A stretch of 39,834 bases of DNA, taken from a virus. Positions 7,425 to 39,834 of the stretch are shown piece after piece. Both the position numbers and the translations under genes were made by a program. Below the pieces are notes generated by a model. That model made no database searches, was not told where the DNA came from, and was given only the letters and a program-made list of their open reading frames with translations. Every line of letters starts with the position of its first letter. Positions within the stretch are counted from its first letter, which is position 1. The stretch covers positions 1-39,834 of the IMG/VR virus record IMGVR_UViG_3300042691_031744. The stretch is one strand, 5' to 3'.

Positions 7425-8090
7425 ATGTCAAGTCAACCTAATATCAATGATCCTGGTATTGCGGTAATTTTAAATGCATGGTCAGAACTGGATCAAGACA
7501 TACAACAAAAATGCTTTGATACCACACTAGAAGTCATTGATTCTATTCCTGGTATAACCACAATACTGTTAGCCAGCGTTCATGTCACGCTTGATCAACA
7601 AAATCAAGGCATCAATTGTTGGTACGACAATGCCAAAAAAATATTCGTAGACGAACAAGGAGTAGACTGGGTTCGAAGATATTGGAATGTCTCAAGAGAT
7701 CCAGGATTTGCCACACATAATCCCAAGATACGAGATCATGATTATCAAGGCAAACTGTGTGTGGCCATTTGGGAACAATGGGAGCTAGAATATCTTTTGA
7801 ACCATTGTCTTACTCAAGAAAAAAATATTTGGTACTTTGGATCTGGGCTAGGAGTCAGAAGAGATCCCATGGGCTGGGGACAACTGTGTGATCTCATACG
7901 CTACAAGCATGTGCGACCCATGAATATATTGACCCACTCTCAAGGCATTACTTTTAACACTAGGTCACAACCTGATTTTCGGCAGGCCAAATTTACCTGG
8001 GTACCGTGGGATCAAACTGATTGGAAACATATTGGCAACGACATTTATCAAAAAATCAGTTTAGATTGGCAGATACCTCCCTGGGAATAG
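7425..8090 (+). CDS. unknown protein, AT-rich accessory gene
   Basis: This 221-aa protein is rich in Trp, Asp and Gln. It contains alternating strands and helices (TTILLASVHVTL, KLCVAIWEQWELEYLL, NIWYFGSGLGVRRDPMGWG), suggesting an alpha/beta fold. No active-site motif recognised. It sits between the promoter at 6965 and an SGNH hydrolase gene that follows after 4 nt, so it is probably co-transcribed with that enzyme and may act on the same substrate. Confidence 0.6.
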   Translation: MSSQPNINDPGIAVILNAWSELDQDIQQKCFDTTLEVIDSIPGITTILLASVHVTLDQQNQGINCWYDNAKKIFVDEQGVDWVRRYWNVSRDPGFATHNPKIRDHDYQGKLCVAIWEQWELEYLLNHCLTQEKNIWYFGSGLGVRRDPMGWGQLCDLIRYKHVRPMNILTHSQGITFNTRSQPDFRQAKFTWVPWDQTDWKHIGNDIYQKISLDWQIPPWE

Positions 8091-8094
8091 TAAC

Positions 8095-8814
8095 ATGGCC
8101 AATATTTTGATCTGCGGGGACAGTTGGGGTTGTGGTGAGTGGGATGTCGCTTGCACCAAAGTCACCCACACAGGATTGGAGCAATATCTTGTGGATGACA
8201 GACACACAGTATTCAACATCAGCAAAGGCGGCACTTCAAATTTGGACAGCAGTAACAGGATAAACCTATGGTTCGAAAGGTTTGGCAGTCAGCACATAGA
8301 CACTGTGTTGGTATTTCAAACCGATTATGTAAGAGACCTCAAGCACAACACCTATCCAGAGGATTGGAACACACAGGTTTTATCCGGTGTTGCCGAACGA
8401 TGGGTAGAAAGATTTTATCATAGACTGTCTGAATTATCACAAAAACATGACTGCAAGATCAAGATTATTGGTGGACTTGCTGACACAGTTTGGTTTGATC
8501 AAATGTCTATAGATTATCCTGGATGCGAAATTGCTTGTCAGAGCTTGGTTAATTTGGTGCTGGCCAATAATCATCGTGTTGATGTTCCGGTATTCAGTTG
8601 GTACGGTTCTGACTCAGAACCAATTTTAGCCCGTGCCAAAAGTCTGGGATTAGAACTTGATTGCACATTGAAACTAATGCATCTGGGACTTGAACGTGAA
8701 TCTCTAATCCGCGAGAATCCTGGATTTTTTTATCCAGATGGCACACATCCAAATCGTCGGGCATATCATATTTTGTATGAATTTCTGCGGCACAAAAGTA
8801 TTATACCAAATTAA
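8095..8814 (+). CDS. SGNH/GDSL-type hydrolase
   Basis: This 239-aa protein has the block I motif CGDSWGCGEW (Ser10), a block II-like Gly (KGGTSN) and the block V dyad in PDGTHPNRRAY (Asp and His). The superfamily contains esterases and acetylhydrolases that remove O-acyl groups from sugars, polysaccharides or lipids. No signal peptide, so it acts in the cytoplasm or as part of the virion. A second SGNH hydrolase is at 24,270. Surface-glycan or capsule deacetylation is a reasonable but unproven role. Confidence 0.75.
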   Translation: MANILICGDSWGCGEWDVACTKVTHTGLEQYLVDDRHTVFNISKGGTSNLDSSNRINLWFERFGSQHIDTVLVFQTDYVRDLKHNTYPEDWNTQVLSGVAERWVERFYHRLSELSQKHDCKIKIIGGLADTVWFDQMSIDYPGCEIACQSLVNLVLANNHRVDVPVFSWYGSDSEPILARAKSLGLELDCTLKLMHLGLERESLIRENPGFFYPDGTHPNRRAYHILYEFLRHKSIIPN

Positions 8815-8863
8815 AATTCCTATAAGTAAATGATGCAAAAATATTCAAGGACACAATCTTAAT

Positions 8864-9082
8864 TTGGCCAAAGAAGATACCATAAAAATGGAAGGTGTTA
8901 TAGAAGAAGTTTTACCCAACACCACCTATAGAGTAAAGATTGAATCATTCGACAAGCCTGTGTTGGCCAGCCTAAATGGTCGTATGCGCATGAACAACAT
9001 CAAAGTTCTTGCTGGAGACACAGTAGAATTAGAGTTTAGTCCATATGATCTCACTCGCGGACGTATAACACGCCGCAGATAA
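8864..9082 (+). CDS. infA: translation initiation factor IF-1
   Basis: This 72-aa protein has the length and S1-type OB fold of bacterial IF-1. Diagnostic stretches are MAKEDTIKMEG, EVLPNTTYRV, NGRMRMNNIKVLAGDTV and SPYDLTRGRI. The start is TTG at 8864, with AAGGA 12 nt upstream. Relative to the bacterial consensus, the loop after strand 3 is changed (ESFDKPVLASLNG in place of ENGHxxxAHxSG). IF-1 binds the ribosomal A site on the 30S subunit and works with IF-2 and IF-3. A phage copy implies retuning of initiation. The TAA stop forms part of the late promoter for the next gene. Confidence 0.9.
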   Translation: MAKEDTIKMEGVIEEVLPNTTYRVKIESFDKPVLASLNGRMRMNNIKVLAGDTVELEFSPYDLTRGRITRRR

Positions 9083-9085
9083 ATA
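9078..9085 (+). promoter_or_regulatory. T4-late-type promoter, leaderless arrangement
   Basis: GATAAATA matches the T4 late core TATAAATA at seven of eight positions. By T4 spacing (core at -13 to -6) the transcript starts at 9091, the A of the SOD ATG. The IF-1 stop TAA (9080-9082) is inside it. Confidence 0.65.
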
Positions 9086-9090
9086 TCCTT

Positions 9091-9645
9091 ATGCAACACG
9101 AAATCCGCCAAAATCTAGACCTGCTAGAAGCTTCAACTCGTCCAGCCAAGCTGGAGACCACGCCTTTGCCCTATGGCGAAGGTGATCTTGATCCAGTGCT
9201 CAGCAAGGACAGCATCAATTATCACTATGAGCACCTGGCCAAAGGCTATGCCAAACGCTACAACGCCGGAGAAGGCAACGCCAATTTTAATCGCGCCGGC
9301 AGTTTCTTGCACAACAAGTTTTTTCCACAATTACGACCGCCCAAGGGTGCCAATCGTCCTCGTGGTGCTGTGCTGGAGCTTATAGAAACAAACTTCAAAA
9401 CCTATGAAGATTTCAAACAGGCTTTCAAAGAAACAGCCATGAAAATCCAAGGTTCAGGCTGGATTTATTTGAGCACAGCAGGAACCATCAAGACCATACC
9501 AAATCATCAGGTACGAACAGATATTTGCGTGTTGGTAGACTGGTGGGAACATGTCTGGGCCACAGACTACCAATGGGACAAAGAACGCTACTTGGACAAC
9601 ATTTGGAAAATTATAGATTGGGATGTTTGCAACCAAAGATTATGA
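9091..9645 (+). CDS. Fe/Mn superoxide dismutase
   Basis: This 184-aa protein has the SOD_Fe_N and SOD_Fe_C domains and all four expected metal ligands: His45 (NYHYEHL), His74 (FLHNKFF), Asp150 and His154 (LVDWWEH). GSGWIYLST and the [11 protein letters not shown] signature are intact, so it should be active. The family converts superoxide to oxygen and peroxide. Whether it takes iron or manganese cannot be read here. No signal peptide, so it acts in the host cytoplasm. The stop overlaps the Fe-S carrier gene by four bases, and both follow a late-type promoter. That fits protection of Fe-S clusters during virion production. Confidence 0.88.
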
Positions 9646-9968
9646 TAACAGTAACTGAACAAGCAGTGGCAAAACTCCGAGACATATTGGCTGAGGAAAA
9701 TAACCCAAGTTTAAAACTCAGAGTTTTTGTGCAAGGTGGCGGGTGTAGTGGAATGCAGTACGGTTTTACCCTGGACGAAACCCAAAACGAAGACGACTGG
9801 GATCTAGAAGTTTCTGGAGTCAAAGTTCTAGTAGATTCTATGAGCGGCGGTTACTTGCAGGGTGCTGAAATCGACTACAAAGAAGATCAGTACGGCGCCG
9901 CATTTAGCATCAAGAACCCTTCTGCACAAACCACCTGTGGTTGCGGAAGCAGTTTCAGCCCGGTCTAA
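9642..9968 (+). CDS. A-type Fe-S cluster carrier (ErpA/IscA/HesB family)
   Basis: This 108-aa protein has the three family cysteines: Cys35 in [11 protein letters not shown], and Cys99 and Cys101 in [10 protein letters not shown] chose the ATG at 9642 (ATGA overlap with the SOD stop); upstream in-frame codons overlap SOD and are not homologous to the family. ErpA/IscA proteins accept clusters from the scaffold and deliver them to apo-enzymes. The CGCGSSFS end favours ErpA. Pairing with SOD suggests maintenance of Fe-S enzymes under oxidative stress. Confidence 0.88.
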
Positions 9969-9995
9969 CCCCTGACCCAACAAGCCAAATAATCT

Positions 9996-10003
9996 GGTAA
10001 ATA
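9996..10003 (+). promoter_or_regulatory. T4-late-type promoter for the fibre operon
   Basis: GGTAAATA, followed by AGAGGA (10,009-10,014) and ATG at 10,024, heads the tail-fibre block. Confidence 0.65.
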
Positions 10004-10023
10004 CTATCAGAGGACGAATATCT

Positions 10024-12252
10024 ATGGCTCAACAACTTATTGGCGTAGGAAATGCACCCAACGACGGACAAGGCAATCCCATACGCACTGCTTTTATCAA
10101 ATGCAATGACAATTTCAGCGAATTATATGCGCGAGCCCAGGTAAGTCCGCCTCCGACTTTGATAGGTAGCATTGGTGATTTTGCTGGAATGTATGCATAT
10201 GATTCTTCGTATTTTTATTACTGTTTTGCAGACTATGATGGTAGTAGTATTATCTGGGCCCAGGTCACGCAGGTTGGCAATGTGTCAGTCAGTGCAATCA
10301 CCAACGGTACTAGCAATGTAAGGATTTCGGACATAAATGGCAATGCCAGCATCGGAATCAATGGCACAGGAAACGTGGTGGTGGTTTCTGATACTGGACA
10401 ATTTGTAACTGGCAATATTTCATCATCTGGCAACGTAATTGGTAATTATATACTAGGTAATGGCAGTCAACTAACAGGATTGCCTGAAACCTACGCCAAC
10501 AGCAACGTGGCTGCCTTCCTGCCAGTTTATTCTGGCAACATTTCGGCCAACAATATCACAGTAACTACAGCACTAAGCTCAGCCAATATCACAGCCACAA
10601 GCAACATCACCGGTGGTAACATACTGAGCAGTGGGATCATTAGTACGTCTGGAAACATTTTGACTCAAAGCATTATCAGCGCTACTGGTAACATTGAAAC
10701 AGCTGGTTATTTTGTAGGCACCTTTGTAGGCAACGTTACCGGTAACTTTGTGGTACCGGGTGCCAACACTCAAGTAATATTCAATACCAATGGCAATGCC
10801 GATGCAGTGGCCGGATTTACCTTTGATACCAATGGACCCAACTTGTTGACTGTGCTGGGTACTATCAGCAGTCAAGGCAATGTAGTTGGTGGCAACATAC
10901 GCACCGCAGGCCAAGTCTCGGCCACGGCCAACATCACAGGTGGCAATGTTCTCACTGGTGGCCTGATTTCAGCCACAGCCAACATCACAGGTGGCAATGT
11001 ACTCACTGGTGGCCTGATTTCAGCCACTTCAACTGTAACTTCTGCAGCCAACATCACCGGTGGTAACTTGATCACGGCTGGATTGGTAACCAGCACCGGA
11101 AATATCACTGGCGGCAATCTACTCACAGCAGGTCGAGTGTCGGCCACGGCCAATGTATACGGCGGAAACGTTATTGTTGTCAATGATGTGCAAACTGGTG
11201 GCAATGTCAGTGCTACCAGCCACACAGGAACCACGGTAAGTGTGATAGGAAATGTCATAGGTGGTAACCTAAGAACCGCAGGATCAATCACAGCCACTGG
11301 AAATGTCACTGGAAATTATTTTATTGGCAATGGCAGCCAACTTAGCAACATCGATACTACAATCATTCAAAATGGCAATTCCAACATGCAGATATCATCG
11401 GCCAATGGCAATGCCACAGTTACTATAGGTGGTGTTGGGCCAACTGTGATTTTTTCTTCTACAGAAACTGTGATATCTGGAAACGCATCAGTTACTGGAA
11501 ACGTCACTGGTGCTAATTTAGTGACCAGCGCCACAGTACAAGCTCTGACTGTCAACGCCACAGGTAACGTCACCGGTGGTAACTTACTCACCGGAGGCTT
11601 GATTTCGGCCACGTCAGCGGTTACTTCGGCTGCAAACATCACAGGCGCTAATATAATTACAGCTGGTCTGGTCACAGCCACAGGCAACGTCACTGGCGGC
11701 AATATAATTACCGCTGGCATAGTAAGCAGTGCCGGCAACATCTCTGGTCAAAATCTCAGTGTCAACTCGGGCACTGTGACTGTTGGAAATATCATCAATG
11801 GCAACGGAAATGGTGTCGGCAACATTGGCAGTTCAAGTCTCTACTATAACACTGTGTTTGCCAAGGCCACAAGTGCTCAATATGCTGACTTGGCAGAGAA
11901 CTATGTGTCAGATGCTGAATATGCTCCAGGTACTGTGGTTGTGTTTGGCGGAGCAAAAGAAATTACCATCAGCACCGAAGCTGCCGATGAACGTGTCGCC
12001 GGAGTTATCAGTACCAATCCAGCTCATTTAATGAATGCTGGTCAGCCCGGCCTAGCAGTGGCCTTGCGTGGGCGTGTGCCTGTGCATGTGATTGGACCAG
12101 TGTTCAAAGGCGACAGCTTGGTTACTTCAAGTACATCTGGTTTCGCACAAAGTGTGGGACGTGATCGATCTTATGCTCAGGCTGTGTTTGCCAAAGCTGT
12201 TGAAACCAATGTCAGCCCTGGCGAAAAGATCATTACAGCGGTGATATTGTGA
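10024..12252 (+). CDS. repetitive tail fibre with C-terminal processing-type domain
   Basis: This 742-aa protein opens with GVGNAPNDGQGNPIRTAF and NDNFSELYA, a typical attachment region of T4-like phage fibres. Residues of about 95-610 are built from degenerate units near 17 residues long (consensus SATGNVTGGNLLTAGLI), predicted to form a beta-helical trimeric shaft. The C-terminal 130 residues (YADLAENYVSDAEYAPGTVVVFGG onward, with ERVAGVISTNPAHLMN) resemble the G2-type autoproteolytic or chaperone domains at the ends of phage fibres. The repeats are nearly identical at DNA level in places, which favours recombination and host-range change. Confidence 0.8.
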   Translation: MAQQLIGVGNAPNDGQGNPIRTAFIKCNDNFSELYARAQVSPPPTLIGSIGDFAGMYAYDSSYFYYCFADYDGSSIIWAQVTQVGNVSVSAITNGTSNVRISDINGNASIGINGTGNVVVVSDTGQFVTGNISSSGNVIGNYILGNGSQLTGLPETYANSNVAAFLPVYSGNISANNITVTTALSSANITATSNITGGNILSSGIISTSGNILTQSIISATGNIETAGYFVGTFVGNVTGNFVVPGANTQVIFNTNGNADAVAGFTFDTNGPNLLTVLGTISSQGNVVGGNIRTAGQVSATANITGGNVLTGGLISATANITGGNVLTGGLISATSTVTSAANITGGNLITAGLVTSTGNITGGNLLTAGRVSATANVYGGNVIVVNDVQTGGNVSATSHTGTTVSVIGNVIGGNLRTAGSITATGNVTGNYFIGNGSQLSNIDTTIIQNGNSNMQISSANGNATVTIGGVGPTVIFSSTETVISGNASVTGNVTGANLVTSATVQALTVNATGNVTGGNLLTGGLISATSAVTSAANITGANIITAGLVTATGNVTGGNIITAGIVSSAGNISGQNLSVNSGTVTVGNIINGNGNGVGNIGSSSLYYNTVFAKATSAQYADLAENYVSDAEYAPGTVVVFGGAKEITISTEAADERVAGVISTNPAHLMNAGQPGLAVALRGRVPVHVIGPVFKGDSLVTSSTSGFAQSVGRDRSYAQAVFAKAVETNVSPGEKIITAVIL
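10927..11028 (+). repeat. tandem 51-bp (17-codon) repeat in the fibre shaft
   Basis: Two copies, 10,927-10,977 and 10,978-11,028, differ at about two bases. The unit encodes ANITGGNVLTGGLISAT. A more diverged copy lies near 11,566-11,616, and a longer stretch of about 120 bp around 10,990-11,115 recurs near 11,580-11,705. Confidence 0.85.
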
Positions 12253-27383: not shown

Positions 27384-27409
27384 TGGGTATATCAAGGAAT
27401 CATACCCAT
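27383..27409 (+). promoter_or_regulatory. hairpin masking the endolysin start codon
   Basis: ATGGGTAT (27,383-27,390) pairs perfectly with ATACCCAT (27,402-27,409). The 11-nt loop contains AAGGA (27,394-27,398), and two bases of the ATG (27,408-27,409) are in the stem. Read-through RNA would be masked. RNA starting near 27,389 would keep only two of the eight 5' arm bases. Confidence 0.75.
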
Positions 27410-28034
27410 GGAAATCACCCGCGAACAACTGGCCCAAATCATACCCAAAAATCCCTACATCGATCAGTGGTGTACAGCATTGAATAAATTGTTGCCGGAC
27501 TACGGCATCGACACTCCACAGCGTGTGGCTGCCTTTCTAGCACAATGCGCCCATGAGTCTGGTGGATTTGTTTTCCTTAAGGAAAACTTGAACTATCGTG
27601 CCGCAAGTTTACGCAAGATATTCCCCAAGTATTTCCCTACCGATGCTTTAGCAGAACAATATGCCAGCCTGCCCAACAAGGCCGAAGCCATAGCCAACAG
27701 GATCTATGCCAACAGAATGGGCAATGGCCCAGAAGAAAGCGGCGATGGTTTCCGCTACTGCGGTCGTGGACTCATACAGCTTACAGGCAAGAGCAACTAT
27801 TCAAACTTTGCTGACAGCATAGAAACGCCTGTGGAAGAAACCAGTGCTTACTTGGAAACTTTCGAGGGCGCAGTACAAAGTGCATGCTGGTTCTGGGAAA
27901 CCAATAATTTAAATCAGTACGCTGACAACAACGACATCCTTACAATGACAAAAAGAATCAACGGCGGCACCATTGGACTCGAGGATAGAATGAAACATTA
28001 TGCTCATGCCCTACATGTATTTGGCGGTCACTGA
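27408..28034 (+). CDS. GH19 endolysin (chitinase-like muramidase)
   Basis: This 208-aa protein has the glycoside hydrolase 19 core: AHESGGF with the catalytic Glu50, a second acidic candidate (Glu59 in KENLNY), YANRMGNGPEESGDG, RGLIQLTGKSNY and the C-terminal RINGG. No signal peptide or membrane anchor, so it needs a holin. Phage GH19 enzymes cleave the MurNAc-GlcNAc backbone. Its TGA overlaps the spanin gene ATG by one base. Expression is expected to be late and gated by the hairpin at its start. Confidence 0.9.
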   Translation: MEITREQLAQIIPKNPYIDQWCTALNKLLPDYGIDTPQRVAAFLAQCAHESGGFVFLKENLNYRAASLRKIFPKYFPTDALAEQYASLPNKAEAIANRIYANRMGNGPEESGDGFRYCGRGLIQLTGKSNYSNFADSIETPVEETSAYLETFEGAVQSACWFWETNNLNQYADNNDILTMTKRINGGTIGLEDRMKHYAHALHVFGGH

Positions 28035-28561
28035 TGTGGCAGTTGGCTGTTCTTTGGAGCTTGATTCCAGATTGGTTGATCACTGCGTTGGTCAACGGCC
28101 TGATCATTGTGGGCCTAATAGGAATCAGTGCCGCATGGATCGCACGCTGGGTTCCTTACTTCAACATGTATCGCGGCCCCATACAACTCATAGGCATTGT
28201 GTGTCTGGTATTGGGAGTCTACTTCAAAGGTGGTGCCGATGTTGAACGTGCCTGGCGCGAACGAGTAAAAGAATTGGAAGCCAAGGTAGCCTTAGCCGAA
28301 GTACAAAGCAAAGAAGCAAATAAAAAGCTAAGCGATCAACTCGCCCAAAACAAACGATTAACTCAGGAAGTCAAAAATGCAAACACAGCCGCTATCCGGG
28401 CCAATGCAGAAAAGATTAATAGTGAGTGCCGTGTGCCTGATGTTGCTATCAGCCTGCACAACAGCGCCAGTAAAAATCAAGTTTCCGGAAGTTCCTCAGG
28501 AACTCCGGGAGTCCTGCCCGCCCCTGGCACAAGTCAACCCAGCCGATCACCAGCTAAGTAG
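28034..28561 (+). CDS. Rz: Rz-like inner-membrane spanin
   Basis: This 175-aa protein has two hydrophobic segments (about residues 16-36 and 48-66), then a coiled coil of about 55 residues rich in Ala, Lys, Glu and Gln (VKELEAKVALAEVQSKEANKKLSDQ and onward) in the periplasm. Its Ser/Pro-rich tail is the reading-frame shadow of the nested Rz1 gene. Two N-terminal spans instead of one are unusual for Rz. It follows the endolysin without a gap. Function: i-spanin fusing inner and outer membranes after peptidoglycan loss. Confidence 0.75.
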   Translation: MWQLAVLWSLIPDWLITALVNGLIIVGLIGISAAWIARWVPYFNMYRGPIQLIGIVCLVLGVYFKGGADVERAWRERVKELEAKVALAEVQSKEANKKLSDQLAQNKRLTQEVKNANTAAIRANAEKINSECRVPDVAISLHNSASKNQVSGSSSGTPGVLPAPGTSQPSRSPAK

Positions 28562-28679
28562 TCTCTTAGAAGTGGTCACGGCCAACTACGCTCAGTATTA
28601 TGAGTGCAAGAATCGTGCTGACGGTTGGACTCAGTGGTATGACAACCAACGCAAGATTTACGAGAGCATATCACGATGA
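28404..28679 (+). CDS. Rz1: Rz1-like outer-membrane spanin lipoprotein, nested
   Basis: It starts inside the Rz gene in another frame. I choose the ATG at 28,404, giving 91 aa with signal MQKRLIVSAVCLMLLSAC and lipobox LLSAC (Cys18). The in-frame ATG at 28,377 adds nine residues. The mature part carries VPQELRESCPPLAQ, a composition typical of o-spanins, and a helical C-terminus (ANYAQYYECKNRADGWTQW). It extends 118 nt past the Rz stop, an overlapping nested arrangement. It should pair with Rz across the periplasm. Confidence 0.8.
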   Translation: MQKRLIVSAVCLMLLSACTTAPVKIKFPEVPQELRESCPPLAQVNPADHQLSSLLEVVTANYAQYYECKNRADGWTQWYDNQRKIYESISR

Positions 28680-28698
28680 AAAAGGAACAGGTTCACTG

Positions 28699-29277
28699 AT
28701 GCCGCAACCGCAGTGTCATGTGATTGCACATGAGTCGTCAAGAGTCATAGGTGACTGTGTACAAAGTTTAACACAACATGGATGGCGTTATAAAATATTT
28801 CCTGCAGTGGATGGTAGAACCGTAACAGCTCAAGATTGGCACCGCACAGGTGTGACCATGAGCCAAGAAGGAAAGATGACACGTCGTCCTGGCGCTCAAG
28901 GTTGCTGGCTGAGTCATTTTGCCCTGTGGCAACAGTGTGCGGATAGCAACGAGCCTGTGGTGATTCTTGAACATGATGCCTTGGTCACAGCGCCATGGCC
29001 TGAAGATTTGAACATAGACAACCAACTGTTAAAATTATTCAGTACAGCAGAATGCAAGGTCAATCCTGCGTTTGGTCTTTGGAGCAAAGGCGCTCATGCT
29101 TATACAGTAACACCTGCCCAAGCACACACTCTTATCACGGATGCGCAACAGCGTGGCGCCCAGGCCGTGGACAAGCACCTGGGCACACAGGTCCTGCCCT
29201 GGACTTTTTACCACCGTGATTTGGTTCTGCTAAACCCTGCTCGTGGACCATCCAGCACAAGTCCGCTGAGAAAGTAA
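28699..29277 (+). CDS. GT25-type glycosyltransferase
   Basis: I use the ATG at 28,699, behind AAAGGAAC; the frame continues upstream only through Rz1 sequence. The 192-aa protein has the LPS-type family 25 landmarks: HVIAHESSRVIGD with KIFPAVDGRTV, GCWLSHFALWQ and VVILEHDALV (the DxD-like acidic pair). C-terminal GLWSKGAHAYTVTPAQA fits the acceptor part. Such enzymes add galactose or another sugar to LPS cores. It may remodel host surface or virion sugars. The stop is part of the next late-type promoter. Confidence 0.78.
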   Translation: MPQPQCHVIAHESSRVIGDCVQSLTQHGWRYKIFPAVDGRTVTAQDWHRTGVTMSQEGKMTRRPGAQGCWLSHFALWQQCADSNEPVVILEHDALVTAPWPEDLNIDNQLLKLFSTAECKVNPAFGLWSKGAHAYTVTPAQAHTLITDAQQRGAQAVDKHLGTQVLPWTFYHRDLVLLNPARGPSSTSPLRK

Positions 29278-29280
29278 ATA
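29273..29280 (+). promoter_or_regulatory. T4-late-type promoter over a stop codon, leaderless arrangement
   Basis: AGTAAATA contains the GT25 stop TAA (29,275-29,277). The ATG at 29,286 is five bases after it, at predicted +1. Confidence 0.65.
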
Positions 29281-29285
29281 CTGTT

Positions 29286-29690
29286 ATGAAACGAATTGTC
29301 CTTGCACTTTCCACAGCGTTGTTGAGCAGTTGTGCCCTTTGGGATGCCTACATGATGGCACCCTATGATGCCAACGAGTACATGCAGATTACAGAAATCC
29401 GTGCTTCAGCTGGACAATATAGAAAGCAGTGCGACAATCCTATACTGGCACCAGCCAATGCTCAAGCCATAGCAAACAAGACTGATCTGTTTGAAAAATA
29501 TGAGGAATTGATTCCCAGAAACGCCAATGGCTACAATGCGGCACGGGCCTTGAATGAAATCACACAAGGACTCAATACAGCCTATGCCAAAGGCGTTGTT
29601 AGTCCGACATTCTGTAGATTAAAATACAACAACATAGAACACAGTTCTGAACTCATACAGCGTGTCACAGCAGGAAGACCCAGACGATGA
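29286..29690 (+). CDS. small lipoprotein of unknown function
   Basis: This 134-aa protein starts with MKRIVLALSTALLSSC, a signal with lipobox LSSC (Cys16). The mature domain is helical with two further Cys residues (QCDN, FCRL) that could form a disulfide. No family recognised. It heads the 29,286-31,721 operon under a leaderless late-type promoter and overlaps the next gene by four bases. Confidence 0.65.
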   Translation: MKRIVLALSTALLSSCALWDAYMMAPYDANEYMQITEIRASAGQYRKQCDNPILAPANAQAIANKTDLFEKYEELIPRNANGYNAARALNEITQGLNTAYAKGVVSPTFCRLKYNNIEHSSELIQRVTAGRPRR

Positions 29691-30814
29691 GAGCAGAAGA
29701 ATTCACCCAAGGACGTGTCATGGCCAAGATAGAAAGCACTGGCCAAATAGTGCAGATATTACGGCACCAAGATGGTGACTTCTTGATCAATACCAATCCT
29801 GACACAAAGAGCCACATGGGAGTCAAGTGGATTCCAGATTCAACAAGATTCGCCTGGGTCAAGAAGTTTGACAGTTTAAAAGAAAATAAAACTGCTTCAG
29901 CCAAACAAGTTTTAAAATACATTAATCAAACACATCATGAACCTTTGATTCCTAAGTTAGAGAAAACAGTATTATCTTATCCGCAATGGCAACTTAAACG
30001 TGTACCTTTGTTGAATCTCAACATACCCGATGAAGAATATGACGATGTGGAGCAAGAGCCCGAATCAGATCCTTATGGTCGTGTGATGGCAGTGGACCCT
30101 GCACATGCTGGTGAAGTGAGTCAGCACATCATTGACAAACGGCCCATCGTGATAGATGCAGATCGTTATATCATAGACGGTAATCATAGAGCCTGGGCAG
30201 CCAAAAACTTGTTGAACAAAGATTATATCTCAGCGTGGGTTCCGGTAAAACAAATAAAGGAAGTTAACTATCCCGACGAACTCACCGTCAGTGACCGCAT
30301 ACAAGAATATTTTTTCAATCGTGGCTATGAGTTGGCTGGTGAAGGACGCGACCAGATGGCCTTTGAAAGTCCGCGAGGTACCATAGTCAAAGTGCTAGGC
30401 ACTGGCGATCCAGAACGTGAACAGGTTGTATTGGACTATGTGAAATTCTTTGAACAAAATCAGCGCAATCCTTTCTATCCCAGGATCTACAACTCGGGCT
30501 TCTTTGACATAGACAACGAACGCTACTTTGTGTATGAAATGGAACGTGTGAACTATGTGGCCAACGAAGAAGCCACCCTGGACTACATAGAGAAGCTCAT
30601 GAGTGCTGTGGACCGTGAACAAGGCGAACAGTTTTTACAACGAAATCCTGTGCCAGCAGAAATGAGTGAGGCAGAAATATTTGGTCTCATACAGGCCACC
30701 GAAGACATGATACAGGTCTTGGGCGGACAGGCCCCTTTGGATTTGACAGCCGTGGAAAATCTTGGCCGTAGAAACAACGGTCATCTTGTCATAGTGGATC
30801 CCTACAGCCTATGA
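29687..30814 (+). CDS. ParB/Srx-like plus kinase-like fusion protein with N-terminal targeting-type peptide
   Basis: This 375-aa protein begins MRAEEFT. Residues of about 125-200 hold a ParB/sulfiredoxin-like motif with VIDADRYIIDGNHRAWA (DGNHR at 164-168). Residues 214-375 read as a kinase-like fold: loop GEGRDQMAF (218-226), Lys235 in TIVKV, hinge YFVYEMERV, a catalytic-loop-like DLTAVENLG (Asp352, Asn358) and GHLVIVDPY (Asp371 as the DFG Asp). All three kinase acidic and amide residues appear present, so activity is possible. The pairing of these folds is unusual. Coupled by ATGA at both ends. Alternative: a pseudokinase or aminoglycoside-phosphotransferase-type domain. Confidence 0.6.
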   Translation: MRAEEFTQGRVMAKIESTGQIVQILRHQDGDFLINTNPDTKSHMGVKWIPDSTRFAWVKKFDSLKENKTASAKQVLKYINQTHHEPLIPKLEKTVLSYPQWQLKRVPLLNLNIPDEEYDDVEQEPESDPYGRVMAVDPAHAGEVSQHIIDKRPIVIDADRYIIDGNHRAWAAKNLLNKDYISAWVPVKQIKEVNYPDELTVSDRIQEYFFNRGYELAGEGRDQMAFESPRGTIVKVLGTGDPEREQVVLDYVKFFEQNQRNPFYPRIYNSGFFDIDNERYFVYEMERVNYVANEEATLDYIEKLMSAVDREQGEQFLQRNPVPAEMSEAEIFGLIQATEDMIQVLGGQAPLDLTAVENLGRRNNGHLVIVDPYSL

Positions 30815-31464
30815 GAGCCCAAGAGTTTGTAAAAGACTACGAAGGCATGAGCCTTAAAATATCCCGGGATGCCGATGGCGTGGCCATACGTGCTTATGGT
30901 GCGGATGGTGCTAGAGAGTTGGGCATGGCAGAATTTTTCTTTGATGAACAGGGTCGCTTGGATCCGCAAACTGTATGGGTGGATGAACGCTATCATGGGC
31001 AAGGCATCGCGGCTGCCATGTATGATTATTTAAAAAGCAAAGGGTACAAGATCATAAGGAGTTGGGATCAAACCGATGCTGGTCGAGGCTTTTGGGACAA
31101 ACATCGCGGAGCAGAAGCCACAGTGTGGGAAGACACACAAGAATATCTATATCATGCCACCTACCGACCTTTGCTGAAAAGCATACAGGCAAAAGGCCTG
31201 GGCAACACTACGCAGAGCCAATGGACCGACAGTGAACCCGGTGTGGTGTATCTTGCACAGGATCCAGAAGTGGCACGCAGTTATGCTGAAACCGCAGAGT
31301 CGGTGCCTGAAGAGTGGTTGGATCAAATCGTGGTTTTACAAATATCCAAAAAAGATTTAGATGCCGATCGGTTACACATGGATAGAAATGTACAGGATAA
31401 CACCGGAGACACTTTAGAATATCACGGTGTGATACCTGCCAACAAACTAAGGAGAACGAAATGA
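30811..31464 (+). CDS. GNAT acetyltransferase plus ADP-ribosyltransferase-like fusion
   Basis: This 217-aa protein begins MRAQEFV, like the previous one. Residues of about 10-108 are a GNAT domain with the acetyl-CoA motif VDERYHGQGIAAAMYDYL (RxxGxG variant) and DAGRGFWDKHRG. Residues of about 110-217 fit the ADP-ribosyltransferase fold: LYHAT (His115), VVYLAQD (Tyr147), ARSYAE and LEYHGVIPANKL (Glu203), an H-Y-E-type arrangement. T4 Alt and Mod are ADP-ribosyltransferases that modify host RNA polymerase. A two-activity enzyme is possible. Gene overlaps are four bases on each side. Confidence 0.6.
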   Translation: MRAQEFVKDYEGMSLKISRDADGVAIRAYGADGARELGMAEFFFDEQGRLDPQTVWVDERYHGQGIAAAMYDYLKSKGYKIIRSWDQTDAGRGFWDKHRGAEATVWEDTQEYLYHATYRPLLKSIQAKGLGNTTQSQWTDSEPGVVYLAQDPEVARSYAETAESVPEEWLDQIVVLQISKKDLDADRLHMDRNVQDNTGDTLEYHGVIPANKLRRTK

Positions 31465-31721
31465 GCTGGAGCCAATGGGAAACTGAAGTGCTACACATCT
31501 TAAACAACCCCGATGATGAAAACACCCGCATGGTGGCCACTGCTACCAACGCCTACGGAGAAGAATTGCGTGCTGGCAATATCAAGCCTGCGGAATACGC
31601 AGAGCTACTGTTAGATCTACAACGTCAGATCACAATCACTGAAAACATGTCACAATTTGAGACCAAGCAAAGGTTAAATACAGCTATAACTGCCTTGGTC
31701 ACTATAGCCTCAGCAGTGTAA
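31461..31721 (+). CDS. small helical protein, unknown
   Basis: This 86-aa, all-helical protein (WSQWETEVLHILNNPDDENTR and further) has no motif I recognise. ATGA overlap with the fusion gene and likely coupling make it a candidate antitoxin, chaperone or structural partner of that protein, with no direct evidence. The gap to the holin gene is 42 nt, AT-rich, and contains a weak TATAAT at 31,736. Confidence 0.6.
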   Translation: MSWSQWETEVLHILNNPDDENTRMVATATNAYGEELRAGNIKPAEYAELLLDLQRQITITENMSQFETKQRLNTAITALVTIASAV

Positions 31722-39112: not shown

Positions 39113-39120
39113 GGTAAATA
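39113..39120 (+). promoter_or_regulatory. T4-late-type promoter, leaderless arrangement
   Basis: GGTAAATA with five bases to the ATG at 39,126, which coincides with the predicted start. Confidence 0.62.
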
Positions 39121-39125
39121 CACTC

Positions 39126-39834
39126 ATGAACATCCATGAGTTAGATTCCTACGATTTAGGCGATGCAGTCAAGTTCAACGATAAACTAAATCCACGTATC
39201 TGGGGCGCAGATGAAAAAATGCGCCCCGAAGTGCGTGAACAGTTGTTGCGAGTTGCCGACGATTTCCGCGAATTCCTGGGCATAGATGTTGAAGTCAAAG
39301 ACATCACTGTGTCAGGATCCAATGCGGCATATACCTACACCCCACATTCAGACATCGATTTACATCTGGTGGTAGACTTGCCGGAAGCTGATCGAAACGA
39401 AGTTTATCGCGAATTGTTTGATGCCAAGAAGTATGTCTACAACGAACAGCATGACATCAAAATTGGTGGCTATGATGTGGAGCTCTACGTACAGGACGCA
39501 AACAAAACTCATCACAGTCAAGGCATATACTCTTTGACCAATGACGATTGGGTAAGTGTTCCTAAAAGACGTCAGCCTGACGTGGATGACATCAGCGTAA
39601 AAAGCAAGTTTGAAGATCTCGGCCATCGTATTGAAAGTGCAATCAAAAGCCAGGATTATGAAAAGATTTCAGCCATGGCCGACAAAATCAAAGATTACCG
39701 TCAGGCTGGACTGGATGCACACGGTGAGTTTGGTCCGGAGAATCTTGCTTTCAAGATTCTGCGCACACAGGGCCTAATCAAAAGATTGTATGATGCTCGC
39801 AACGCAGCCAAAGACGAATTATTGAGTCTAGACG
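39126..39834 (+). CDS. minimal nucleotidyltransferase, 3' partial
   Basis: At least 236 codons are open to the window edge. Motif VSGSNAAYTYT followed by HSDIDLHLVVD gives the GS-x10-DxD signature (Gly64, Ser65, Asp76, Asp78) of the polymerase-beta-like nucleotidyltransferase superfamily (MNT, kanamycin and CCA-type enzymes). A later acidic residue in DVELYVQ could be the third metal ligand. Helical region follows. Such genes occur in T4-like aquatic phages; the substrate is unknown. Confidence 0.72.
   Translation, partial: MNIHELDSYDLGDAVKFNDKLNPRIWGADEKMRPEVREQLLRVADDFREFLGIDVEVKDITVSGSNAAYTYTPHSDIDLHLVVDLPEADRNEVYRELFDAKKYVYNEQHDIKIGGYDVELYVQDANKTHHSQGIYSLTNDDWVSVPKRRQPDVDDISVKSKFEDLGHRIESAIKSQDYEKISAMADKIKDYRQAGLDAHGEFGPENLAFKILRTQGLIKRLYDARNAAKDELLSLD

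Follow-up and report, generated by a model that had tools for sequence, protein, structure and literature searches.

A recurrent leader peptide on shuffled multi-domain proteins, likely head cargo of a T4-like jumbo phage

Two neighbouring phage genes encode different assemblies of enzyme-like domains and yet begin with the same motif, MRA[E/Q]EF, which raises the question of what this shared start does. The genes lie in a 39,834-nucleotide stretch (the window; IMG/VR record IMGVR_UViG_3300042691_031744, positions 1 to 39,834), which comes from a giant (jumbo) T4-like virus of bacteria. A first-pass annotation described an operon of four ORFs with 4-base overlaps, and each neighbouring pair indeed shares 4 bases; the common N-terminus is likewise present, as MRAEEF in the 375-aa product and MRAQEF in the 217-aa product. 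The features of the locus are as follows (CTS, capsid-targeting sequence; ART, ADP-ribosyltransferase).

29275..29280, +, TAAATA, late-promoter-like motif, 5 nt ahead of the operon's first ATG
29286..29690, +, 134-aa lipoprotein-like protein, left flank of the shuffling locus
29687..30814, +, 375-aa protein, leader MRAEEF and modules A, B and C
29687..29704, +, CTS-like leader MRAEEF, processing positions degenerate (TQG)
29711..29884, +, module A, about 58 aa, MAKIESTGQIVQIL...
29873..29884, +, SLKE, putative prohead-protease site between modules A and B (L-K-E, then N)
29885..30250, +, module B, ParB-like by sequence; DGNHR at 30176-30190
30251..30262, +, QIKE, putative prohead-protease site between modules B and C (I-K-E, then V)
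30263..30811, +, module C, predicted protein-kinase-fold domain; K235, E286, D352, N358, D371
30811..31464, +, 217-aa protein, leader MRAQEFVKD and predicted GNAT and ART modules
30811..30837, +, CTS-like leader MRAQEFVKD, D in place of the expected cutting Glu
30838..31131, +, module D, predicted GNAT domain; acetyl-CoA-binding motif YHGQGIA at 30991-31011
31120..31131, +, TVWE, putative prohead-protease site between modules D and E (V-W-E, then D)
31132..31461, +, module E, predicted ART domain; H115, Y147, E203; LYHAT at 31147-31161
31461..31721, +, 86-aa protein without leader, right flank of the shuffling locus
39126..39834, +, giant multi-domain protein, start only (ends at the contig end)

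The TAAATA motif points to late transcription of the operon, as expected of T4-type internal head proteins that carry a CTS. In the relative G004 the motif lies at most 30 bp upstream of 58 of 462 genes (2.9 expected), an approximately 20-fold enrichment before genes of relatives, and the giant protein at 39126, whose G004 homologue has 1851 aa, has its own TAAATA at 39115. At 39.8 kb, the window is a fragment that does not include the gp21/gp23 region; the near-complete relatives G001 and G004, which contain the syntenic locus, encode both a Peptidase_S77 (gp21-type) prohead protease (E 5e-27 and 2e-26, respectively) and the gp23 capsid protein (E 5e-98 and 1e-97). Lysis genes adjoin the four-ORF locus, and none of the four proteins gave a PADLOC match. 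The 134-aa protein, for which Pfam and PHROG searches gave no match, and the 86-aa protein both lack the leader and are neighbours of the predicted cargo rather than demonstrated cargo.

Modules of the two proteins

The 375-aa protein had been read as a two-domain product. Its DGNHR and kinase parts are present, but it consists of three modules, because each of these is found separately elsewhere; module A occurs behind a leader in L160 and inside a 605-aa protein in L205. A Pfam search of the whole protein gave nothing, tblastn found no match among 50,697 cultured phage records, and the profiles of the ParB and kinase modules revealed no clear relative among solved structures. The N-terminal half folds poorly in prediction. 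Module B is ParB-like by sequence only: DGNHRA is invariant in nine homologues, profile matches to ParB are weak, the structure model has low confidence in the DGNHR region, and one of the nine homologues, a relative, weakly matches ddrB-ParB (E 0.09).

Module C is predicted to have a kinase fold with the catalytic Lys, Asp, Asn and Asp (Foldseek probability 1.0, E 8e-5; VIA Z 11.9 over 138 residues, 3.8 Å). The residues named in the first-pass annotation, K235, D352, N358 and D371, are all present as numbered; K235 is invariant across 16 homologues and the other three are at least 90% conserved. The T7 gp0.7 kinase family, phrog_15752, matches 15 of the 16 homologues (best E 2e-9) and the module of the window itself with E 2.6e-5, the match on which the sub-family assignment rests. 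Kinase-PolyVal matches weakly in two of the 16, both relatives (E 0.003).

In the 217-aa protein, both proposed domains are supported by fold comparison. Module D would be a GNAT fold with an acetyl-CoA motif: residues 1-102 align with 5n22 (VIA Z 10.5, 100 residues, 3.3 Å), RYHGQGIA fits the motif R/Q-x-x-G-x-G/A, and the Pfam match to PF13508 (E 3e-4) falls below that family's own cut-off. Module E is modelled as a Tpt1-like ART fold (VIA Z 10.7 over 88 residues, 2.4 Å) with an H-Y-E type triad, H115-Y147-E203, which is invariant in an alignment of seven sequences. Assignment as a Tpt1/KptA RNA 2'-phosphotransferase was rejected: the module has about 110 aa, compared with about 177 residues in the two-lobed Tpt1, and only Tpt1 residues 88-177 align. 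Because the N-terminal lobe is absent, module E is better described as a relative sharing the ART fold than as a Tpt1. The protein matches Lak phages only, over its ART half, and a search of one genome per bacterial or archaeal species gave no ART relative with the patterns used.

A recurrent leader at ORF starts

A search of IMG/VR for the shared start on other genes showed that it fronts many unrelated ORFs. MRAxEF[LIV]xE lies at the ORF start in 121 of 130 matches, compared with 3 of 26 for a permuted-codon control. Among 55 non-redundant MRA.[EDQ][FLI] ORFs, which were not selected by MRAxEF[LIV]xE, position 9 is Glu in 60% (Glu does not exceed 11% at position 8 or at 10-16), and position 7 is one of [LIVMF] in 67%. 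A single start duplicated between two neighbouring genes was discarded as an origin, the leader heading many unrelated families.

The CTS of T4 reads MKTYQEFIAE, with the cut before a following A. In MRAxEF[LIV]xE, with its cut expected after the final Glu, an aromatic residue, a hydrophobic residue and Glu follow in the same order as in the CTS of T4 IPI-III and Alt, although MRAxEF leaders are shorter by one residue. The T4 register also fits MKNFQEYLAE in G004 and the starts in S-CREM2 discussed below.

The leaders in the window keep MRAxEF and lack the final Glu (TQG and VKD). Leader removal is therefore not predicted for these two proteins, and this degeneracy explains why no clear gp21-type site had been noticed at first. 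That observation is correct for the window but does not extend to homologues, whose leaders have the final Glu (MRASEFVTE in L160, MRAQEFVVE in L009). In T4, Asp at the final CTS position is reported to block cutting and to leave targeting intact (PMC9026906), and MRAQEFVKD would fit such a targeted but uncut state.

Mass spectrometry of the cultured T4-like phage S-CREM2 detected four enzymes in the virion that are neither structural nor lysis proteins: a SAM hydrolase, an APH-like kinase, a cytidylyltransferase and a Cas9-like protein (PMC10665884). All four carry the leader: MKDFDSFLEE, MKRFDAFLTE and MKNFSSFLTE open three of them, and in the fourth LRFASFMAEA is found at residue 17. At annotated starts, ^M.{2,8}F[LIVMF].E occurs in 5 of 52 virion proteins and 1 of 167 others (Fisher p 0.003), a pattern that was settled after the S-CREM2 N termini had been seen and whose form follows T4 and MRAxEF. 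Two looser patterns failed to reach significance when all virion proteins were counted (p 0.12 and 0.10) and were modestly significant for the non-structural ones (p 0.048 and 0.007). The enzymes belong to other families or subfamilies than the window modules; the window kinase profile gave no match to S-CREM2 ORF14. No N-terminal signal is mentioned in the S-CREM2 paper, according to a search of its text (PMC10665884). S-CRM01, for which a virion kinase is cited (PMC10665884), encodes a leader-bearing kinase (MISFDQFLSE).

Module shuffling and junction sites

Seven syntenic loci have seven module architectures between conserved flanks, the 134-aa protein on the left (72-83% identity) and the 86-aa protein on the right (92-97%). 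The modules of relatives include NUDIX, GNAT, amidoligase, NT5C and others. Both this reshuffling and the enrichment of a motif at module junctions are new here. [LIVMFY].E, the motif of the prohead protease, precedes 70 of 81 internal module starts, compared with 27 for the reversed E.[LIVMFY] and 21-25 for other spacings; NFADGK accounts for 22 internal contexts, in which the E could be part of the domain. For ART starts the count is 22 of 24, where 1000 resamplings gave a mean of 5.6 and never more than 12. These counts use family-specific domain starts, which replaced a noisy raw BLAST-breakpoint test; a BLAST-breakpoint version with ART starts excluded and junctions grouped was weaker (18 of 69 versus 8.5 expected; 3 of 2000 resamples as high). 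Since L/I/V-x-E also occurs within domains, for example VAESYAE in many ARTs, the motif alone is no proof of cutting. We consider internal cutting at the junctions by the prohead protease plausible.

Predicted head cargo and its alternatives

We propose that the two MRA[E/Q]EF proteins are head cargo of a T4-like jumbo phage. They would be made late from the TAAATA promoter, and a short N-terminal capsid-targeting peptide would bring them into the prohead core. Both are mosaics whose modules also occur singly behind a leader and recombine between conserved neighbours. The gp21-type protease probably cuts the chains at the L/I/V-x-E junctions into separate enzymes inside the capsid, and the cargo would be injected with the DNA, so that the kinase, GNAT and ART may modify host proteins or RNA at the start of infection. 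The first-pass annotation had suggested co-packaged host-modifying enzymes. Packaging, which we regard as likely, is supported by the fold matches, the leader on other genes and the S-CREM2 virion data, whereas the host-modifying role is one that we infer. The explanation as a whole, cutting and injection included, appears to us probable.

The main competitor, which we rate as a possible but clearly less probable account, holds that the leader is a CTS and that the packaged proteins stay intact, the junction motifs being worn leaders of fused genes. Modules A, B and C occur elsewhere behind leaders of their own, and the ART occurs behind leader-like starts, so that the junctions would most obviously have arisen by fusion at the leader; several short linkers hold just the site, and T4 targeting does not require cutting (PMC9026906). 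Passive remnants would, however, be expected to lose both halves alike, and the F that stands before the site in the MRAxEF and S-CREM2 leaders is absent from all 70 internal sites, although the exact L-x-E spacing is kept. Moreover, sites such as QGVAE before G recur in different fusions, also after ART domains.

The leader could also dock to another late partner, such as the tail, baseplate or a chaperone, with the enzymes located outside the head or co-purified, and the adjoining lysis genes would suit this. Whole-virion mass spectrometry does not separate head from tail. We nevertheless find this unlikely: the leader corresponds in its positions to the T4 CTS, gp21 cleavage motif included, the conserved Glu-9 has no obvious use except cutting, near-complete relatives encode gp21 and gp23, and in T4 the precedents, Alt and IPI-III, are carried inside the head (PMC9026906). 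Slightly less likely still is that the start reflects common ancestry of a small ORF start without targeting, in an operon of ordinary intracellular host-modifying or anti-defence genes. As neighbours, the two genes could have a duplicated start in common, and their own sites are degenerate; against this, unrelated proteins in many contigs carry the leader, with similarity ending after residue 9, and the leader genes of S-CREM2 are spread over its genome and enriched among virion proteins.

Head cargo of the proposed kind shares with the T4 internal proteins late expression, an ART among variable cargo, and gp21 and gp23 in near-complete relatives. It differs in being far more diverse and often multi-module, with a candidate cleavage site per junction. 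T4 Alt is cut near both ends (PMC5694885), and the papers cited here describe no effector polyprotein in T4. The fused, shuffled conflict-type catalytic domains near late genes resemble polyvalent proteins, in which kinase, ART, GNAT, ParB and nucleotidyltransferase modules are similarly combined. According to the sections of that account used here, polyvalent proteins are predicted to be delivered with DNA, and embedded zincin peptidases are proposed to release their domains; these sections mention neither a CTS nor prohead-protease sites (Iyer et al. 2017, PMC5512222). The window proteins, in contrast, are short (2-3 modules) and have no recognised peptidase module. The cyanophages S-CREM2, S-CRM01 and S-SM1 are T4-like and have enzymes in their virions by mass spectrometry (PMC10665884, PMC3037559). 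The jumbo phages phiKZ and SPN3US also carry head cargo, ejection proteins cut after Glu by a gp21-related protease, but several of their propeptides exceed 100 residues, and in SPN3US a single protein has one of CTS-like length (PMC5694885).

The kinase of module C is predicted to be pre-packaged, which sets it apart from the T7 gp0.7 kinase. The latter is made early, in the cell. T4-like phages may use a two-part code, in which an N-terminal targeting peptide and L/I/V-x-E separators define freely recombined polyproteins that are cut in the capsid; we regard the chances for and against this generalization as even. Junction cutting, if true, would account for the free swapping of modules, and the prohead protease would then also convert fused effectors into a toolkit. 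No family is recognised for many of the leader-bearing proteins, and the leader offers a sequence rule that predicts which unannotated proteins of marine and freshwater T4-like phages are borne in the head and injected first.

The operon and its phage

The two genes under study belong to an operon of four ORFs, all of them present as described in the first-pass annotation, with every neighbouring pair overlapping by 4 bases:

29286-29690, lipoprotein-like protein, 134 aa
29687-30814, first leader-bearing protein, 375 aa
30811-31464, second leader-bearing protein, 217 aa
31461-31721, small protein, 86 aa

TAAATA, the core of T4-type late promoters, is found at 29275, ending 5 nt upstream of the operon's first ATG. 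In G004, a near-complete relative with a syntenic locus, 58 of 462 genes have TAAATA within 30 bp upstream, against 2.9 expected. Roughly half of the TAAATA sites fall just 4-7 nt upstream of the ATG (G004 and a second such relative, G001, L023-L057; in the window 29275, 9080, 23114 and 37283), a short spacing that may mean that late mRNAs have little or no 5' leader. The window, a fragment of a virus record, spans 39.8 kb. Syntenic loci are carried by two contigs, 320 and 337 kb long, each encoding a prohead protease (Peptidase_S77) and a capsid protein (gp23). Because these contigs are the closest relatives, we infer that the phage is a T4-like jumbo phage.

Upstream of the operon, an endolysin gene (27408-28034) adjoins an Rz/Rz1-like layout (28034-28679), in which a small lipoprotein ORF (28377-28679) begins out of frame within 28034-28561. 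The stretch 28600-29277, immediately upstream of the operon, matches glycosyltransferase family 25 (PF01755, E 3e-11). The contig edge cuts off a giant multi-domain protein beginning at 39126 (39126-39834), with a homologue of 1851 aa in G004; related giants match nucleotidyltransferases and amidoligases.

The leader peptide and published virion data

The window proteins start with MRAEEFTQG and MRAQEFVKD, respectively. The search for MRAxEF at N termini elsewhere, suggested in the first-pass annotation, was carried out in IMG/VR using a degenerate DNA pattern for MRAxEF[LIVMF]xE (120 stretches listed); among the matches listed, 121 of 130 lie at open-frame starts. A permuted-codon control run over the entire collection matched 26 stretches, 3 of them at ORF starts. 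To avoid selection bias, we used 55 non-redundant ORFs starting MRA.[EDQ][FLI], none picked by the scan. Here Glu occupies position 9 in 60%, versus at most 11% at positions 8 and 10-16, and 67% have an aliphatic residue, Met or Phe at position 7. These ORFs are alike only through position 9, with no similarity beyond.

The residue order is that of the T4 capsid-targeting sequence (CTS), MKTYQEFIAE/A. T4 gp21 cleaves after L/I-x-E; residues 4 and 7 of the CTS mainly govern targeting and residues 8 and 10 processing, and Asp at position 10 blocks cleavage while targeting is still possible (PMC9026906). By analogy with this Asp-10 precedent, both window proteins could be targeted yet retain their leader.

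Leader genes are paired close together in eight loci (L088, L094, L097, L110, L116, L117, L132 and L138), often with a ~123-aa family (TLNRVMM...) adjoining another MRAxEF gene. Leader-bearing proteins of 400-560 aa occur in L059, L065, L093, L100 and L129; some are nuclease-like by eye, and none matched Pfam.

The virion of the cultured T4-like cyanophage S-CREM2, analysed by mass spectrometry, contains a SAM hydrolase, an APH-like kinase, a cytidylyltransferase and a Cas9-like protein, together with structural proteins, proteins of unknown function and two endolysins (PMC10665884). Three of these enzymes have the N termini MKDFDSFLEE, MKRFDAFLTE and MKNFSSFLTE, and the fourth has LRFASFMAEA, beginning at residue 17 counted from its annotated start. 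The latter is the Cas9-like ORF12 (L253, record 7704-10313), annotated from a start that is probably too far upstream. Leader-like starts are also found on the virion proteins ORF13, ORF136 and ORF15 (function unknown). The pattern ^M.{2,8}F[LIVMF].E, modelled on T4 and MRAxEF and fixed after the S-CREM2 sequences were seen, occurs at the annotated starts of 5/52 virion proteins versus 1/167 others (Fisher p 0.003) and of 5/28 non-structural virion proteins (p 0.0002); for two looser leader patterns, p was 0.12 and 0.10 across all S-CREM2 virion proteins. The kinase gene of S-CRM01, for which a virion kinase has been cited (PMC10665884), starts MISFDQFLSE, and a cytidylyltransferase is present in S-SM1 virions (PMC3037559). 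The window kinase profile did not match S-CREM2 ORF14. These data back the leader, not these particular enzymes. Head packaging of the leader-bearing class is likely; for the two window proteins it is predicted from the leader and the relatives.

Modules and their shuffling

The AlphaFold2 model of the 217-aa protein (mean pLDDT 86) bears out the earlier assignment of GNAT and ADP-ribosyltransferase (ART)-like domains, both folds being matched using VIA:

Residues 1-102, GNAT domain: Z 10.5, 100 aligned, 3.3 Å
Residues 108-217, ART domain: best match the Tpt1 C-terminal lobe, Z 10.7, 88 aligned, 2.4 Å

The triad H115, Y147 and E203 is invariant in a seven-sequence ART alignment, which predicts a catalytically active ART. 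Identification as a Tpt1 was rejected, because the N-terminal lobe of Tpt1 is absent.

For the 375-aa protein, confident prediction is limited to residues ~203-375, whose fold is that of a protein kinase (Foldseek match to APH(2'')-Ia, E 8e-5; VIA Z 11.9 over 138 residues). Homologues of this module all have K235 and E286 and nearly all have D352, N358 and D371; 15/16 match the T7 gp0.7 kinase PHROG. From the proposed combination of ParB-like and kinase-like domains, the kinase part stands, with K235, D352, N358 and D371; the middle module, with an invariant DGNHRA and weak ParB profile matches, is ParB-like by sequence.

The flanks of the locus are conserved (lipoprotein 72-83% identity, 86-aa protein 92-97%), and the two leader genes between them vary in every syntenic locus.

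Module order in the first / second leader gene. A, N-module; B, ParB-like; C, kinase; D, GNAT; E, ART; X, Y, Z, without assigned family.
Window: A-B-C / D-E
L002: A-B-C / D-X-E (ends at contig edge, right flank not covered)
L004: A-B-Y-C / D-X-E
L005: A-C / D-X
L006: A-C / GNAT/ART gene missing, 86-aa gene directly after kinase gene (L006:5750-5761)
L007: Y-B / D-X
L008: A-Z-Y-B-C / D-D

Modules A, B and C are also found (nearly) alone behind leaders, as in MRASEFVTE/NKDTAMM (A, L160), MRATEFIIE/SYLNT (ParB-like, L149) and MRASEFVRE/VNYPDEL (single kinase module, L145), and embedded in proteins of 400-1640 aa.

Module junctions and proposed release

In 40/44 distinct ART domains [LIVMF]xE ends at most 12 residues before LYHAT (resampled mean 8.9, maximum 18 in 2000); L/I/V-x-E is also present inside ART domains. 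Across several module families, [LIVMFY]xE lies within 15 residues upstream of 70/81 internal module starts, a count that includes related, not fully independent sequences and 22 contexts supplied by NFADGK, where the Glu may belong to the domain. Control motifs at the 81 starts are far rarer (reversed 27, spacing 0 and 2, 21 and 25, [LIVMFY]xD 14), so the sites are not merely acidic linkers. The signal was weaker when BLAST breakpoints were used and ART was left out (18/69 versus 8.5 expected). The window junctions are SLKE/N, QIKE/V and TVWE/D.

Such sites might be passive remnants of fused leaders. The Phe ahead of the site in MRAxEF leaders is present in 0/70 internal sites, which keep the counterpart of the T4 cutting motif without that of the targeting residue. 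Selection for cutting explains this pattern better than passive remnants would, and junction cutting by a gp21-type protease is plausible.

For polyvalent proteins, release via embedded zincin peptidases has been proposed by Iyer et al. (PMC5512222), in passages that do not include the prohead-protease route proposed here. We found no description of prohead-protease release of effectors in the open full-text literature; other sources may hold one.

We propose that leader-tagged proteins would be expressed late and drawn to the core by the leader, and that a gp21-type protease would cleave the chain at module junctions. The cleaved enzymes would then be injected along with the DNA, and the kinase, GNAT and ART would modify host targets early.
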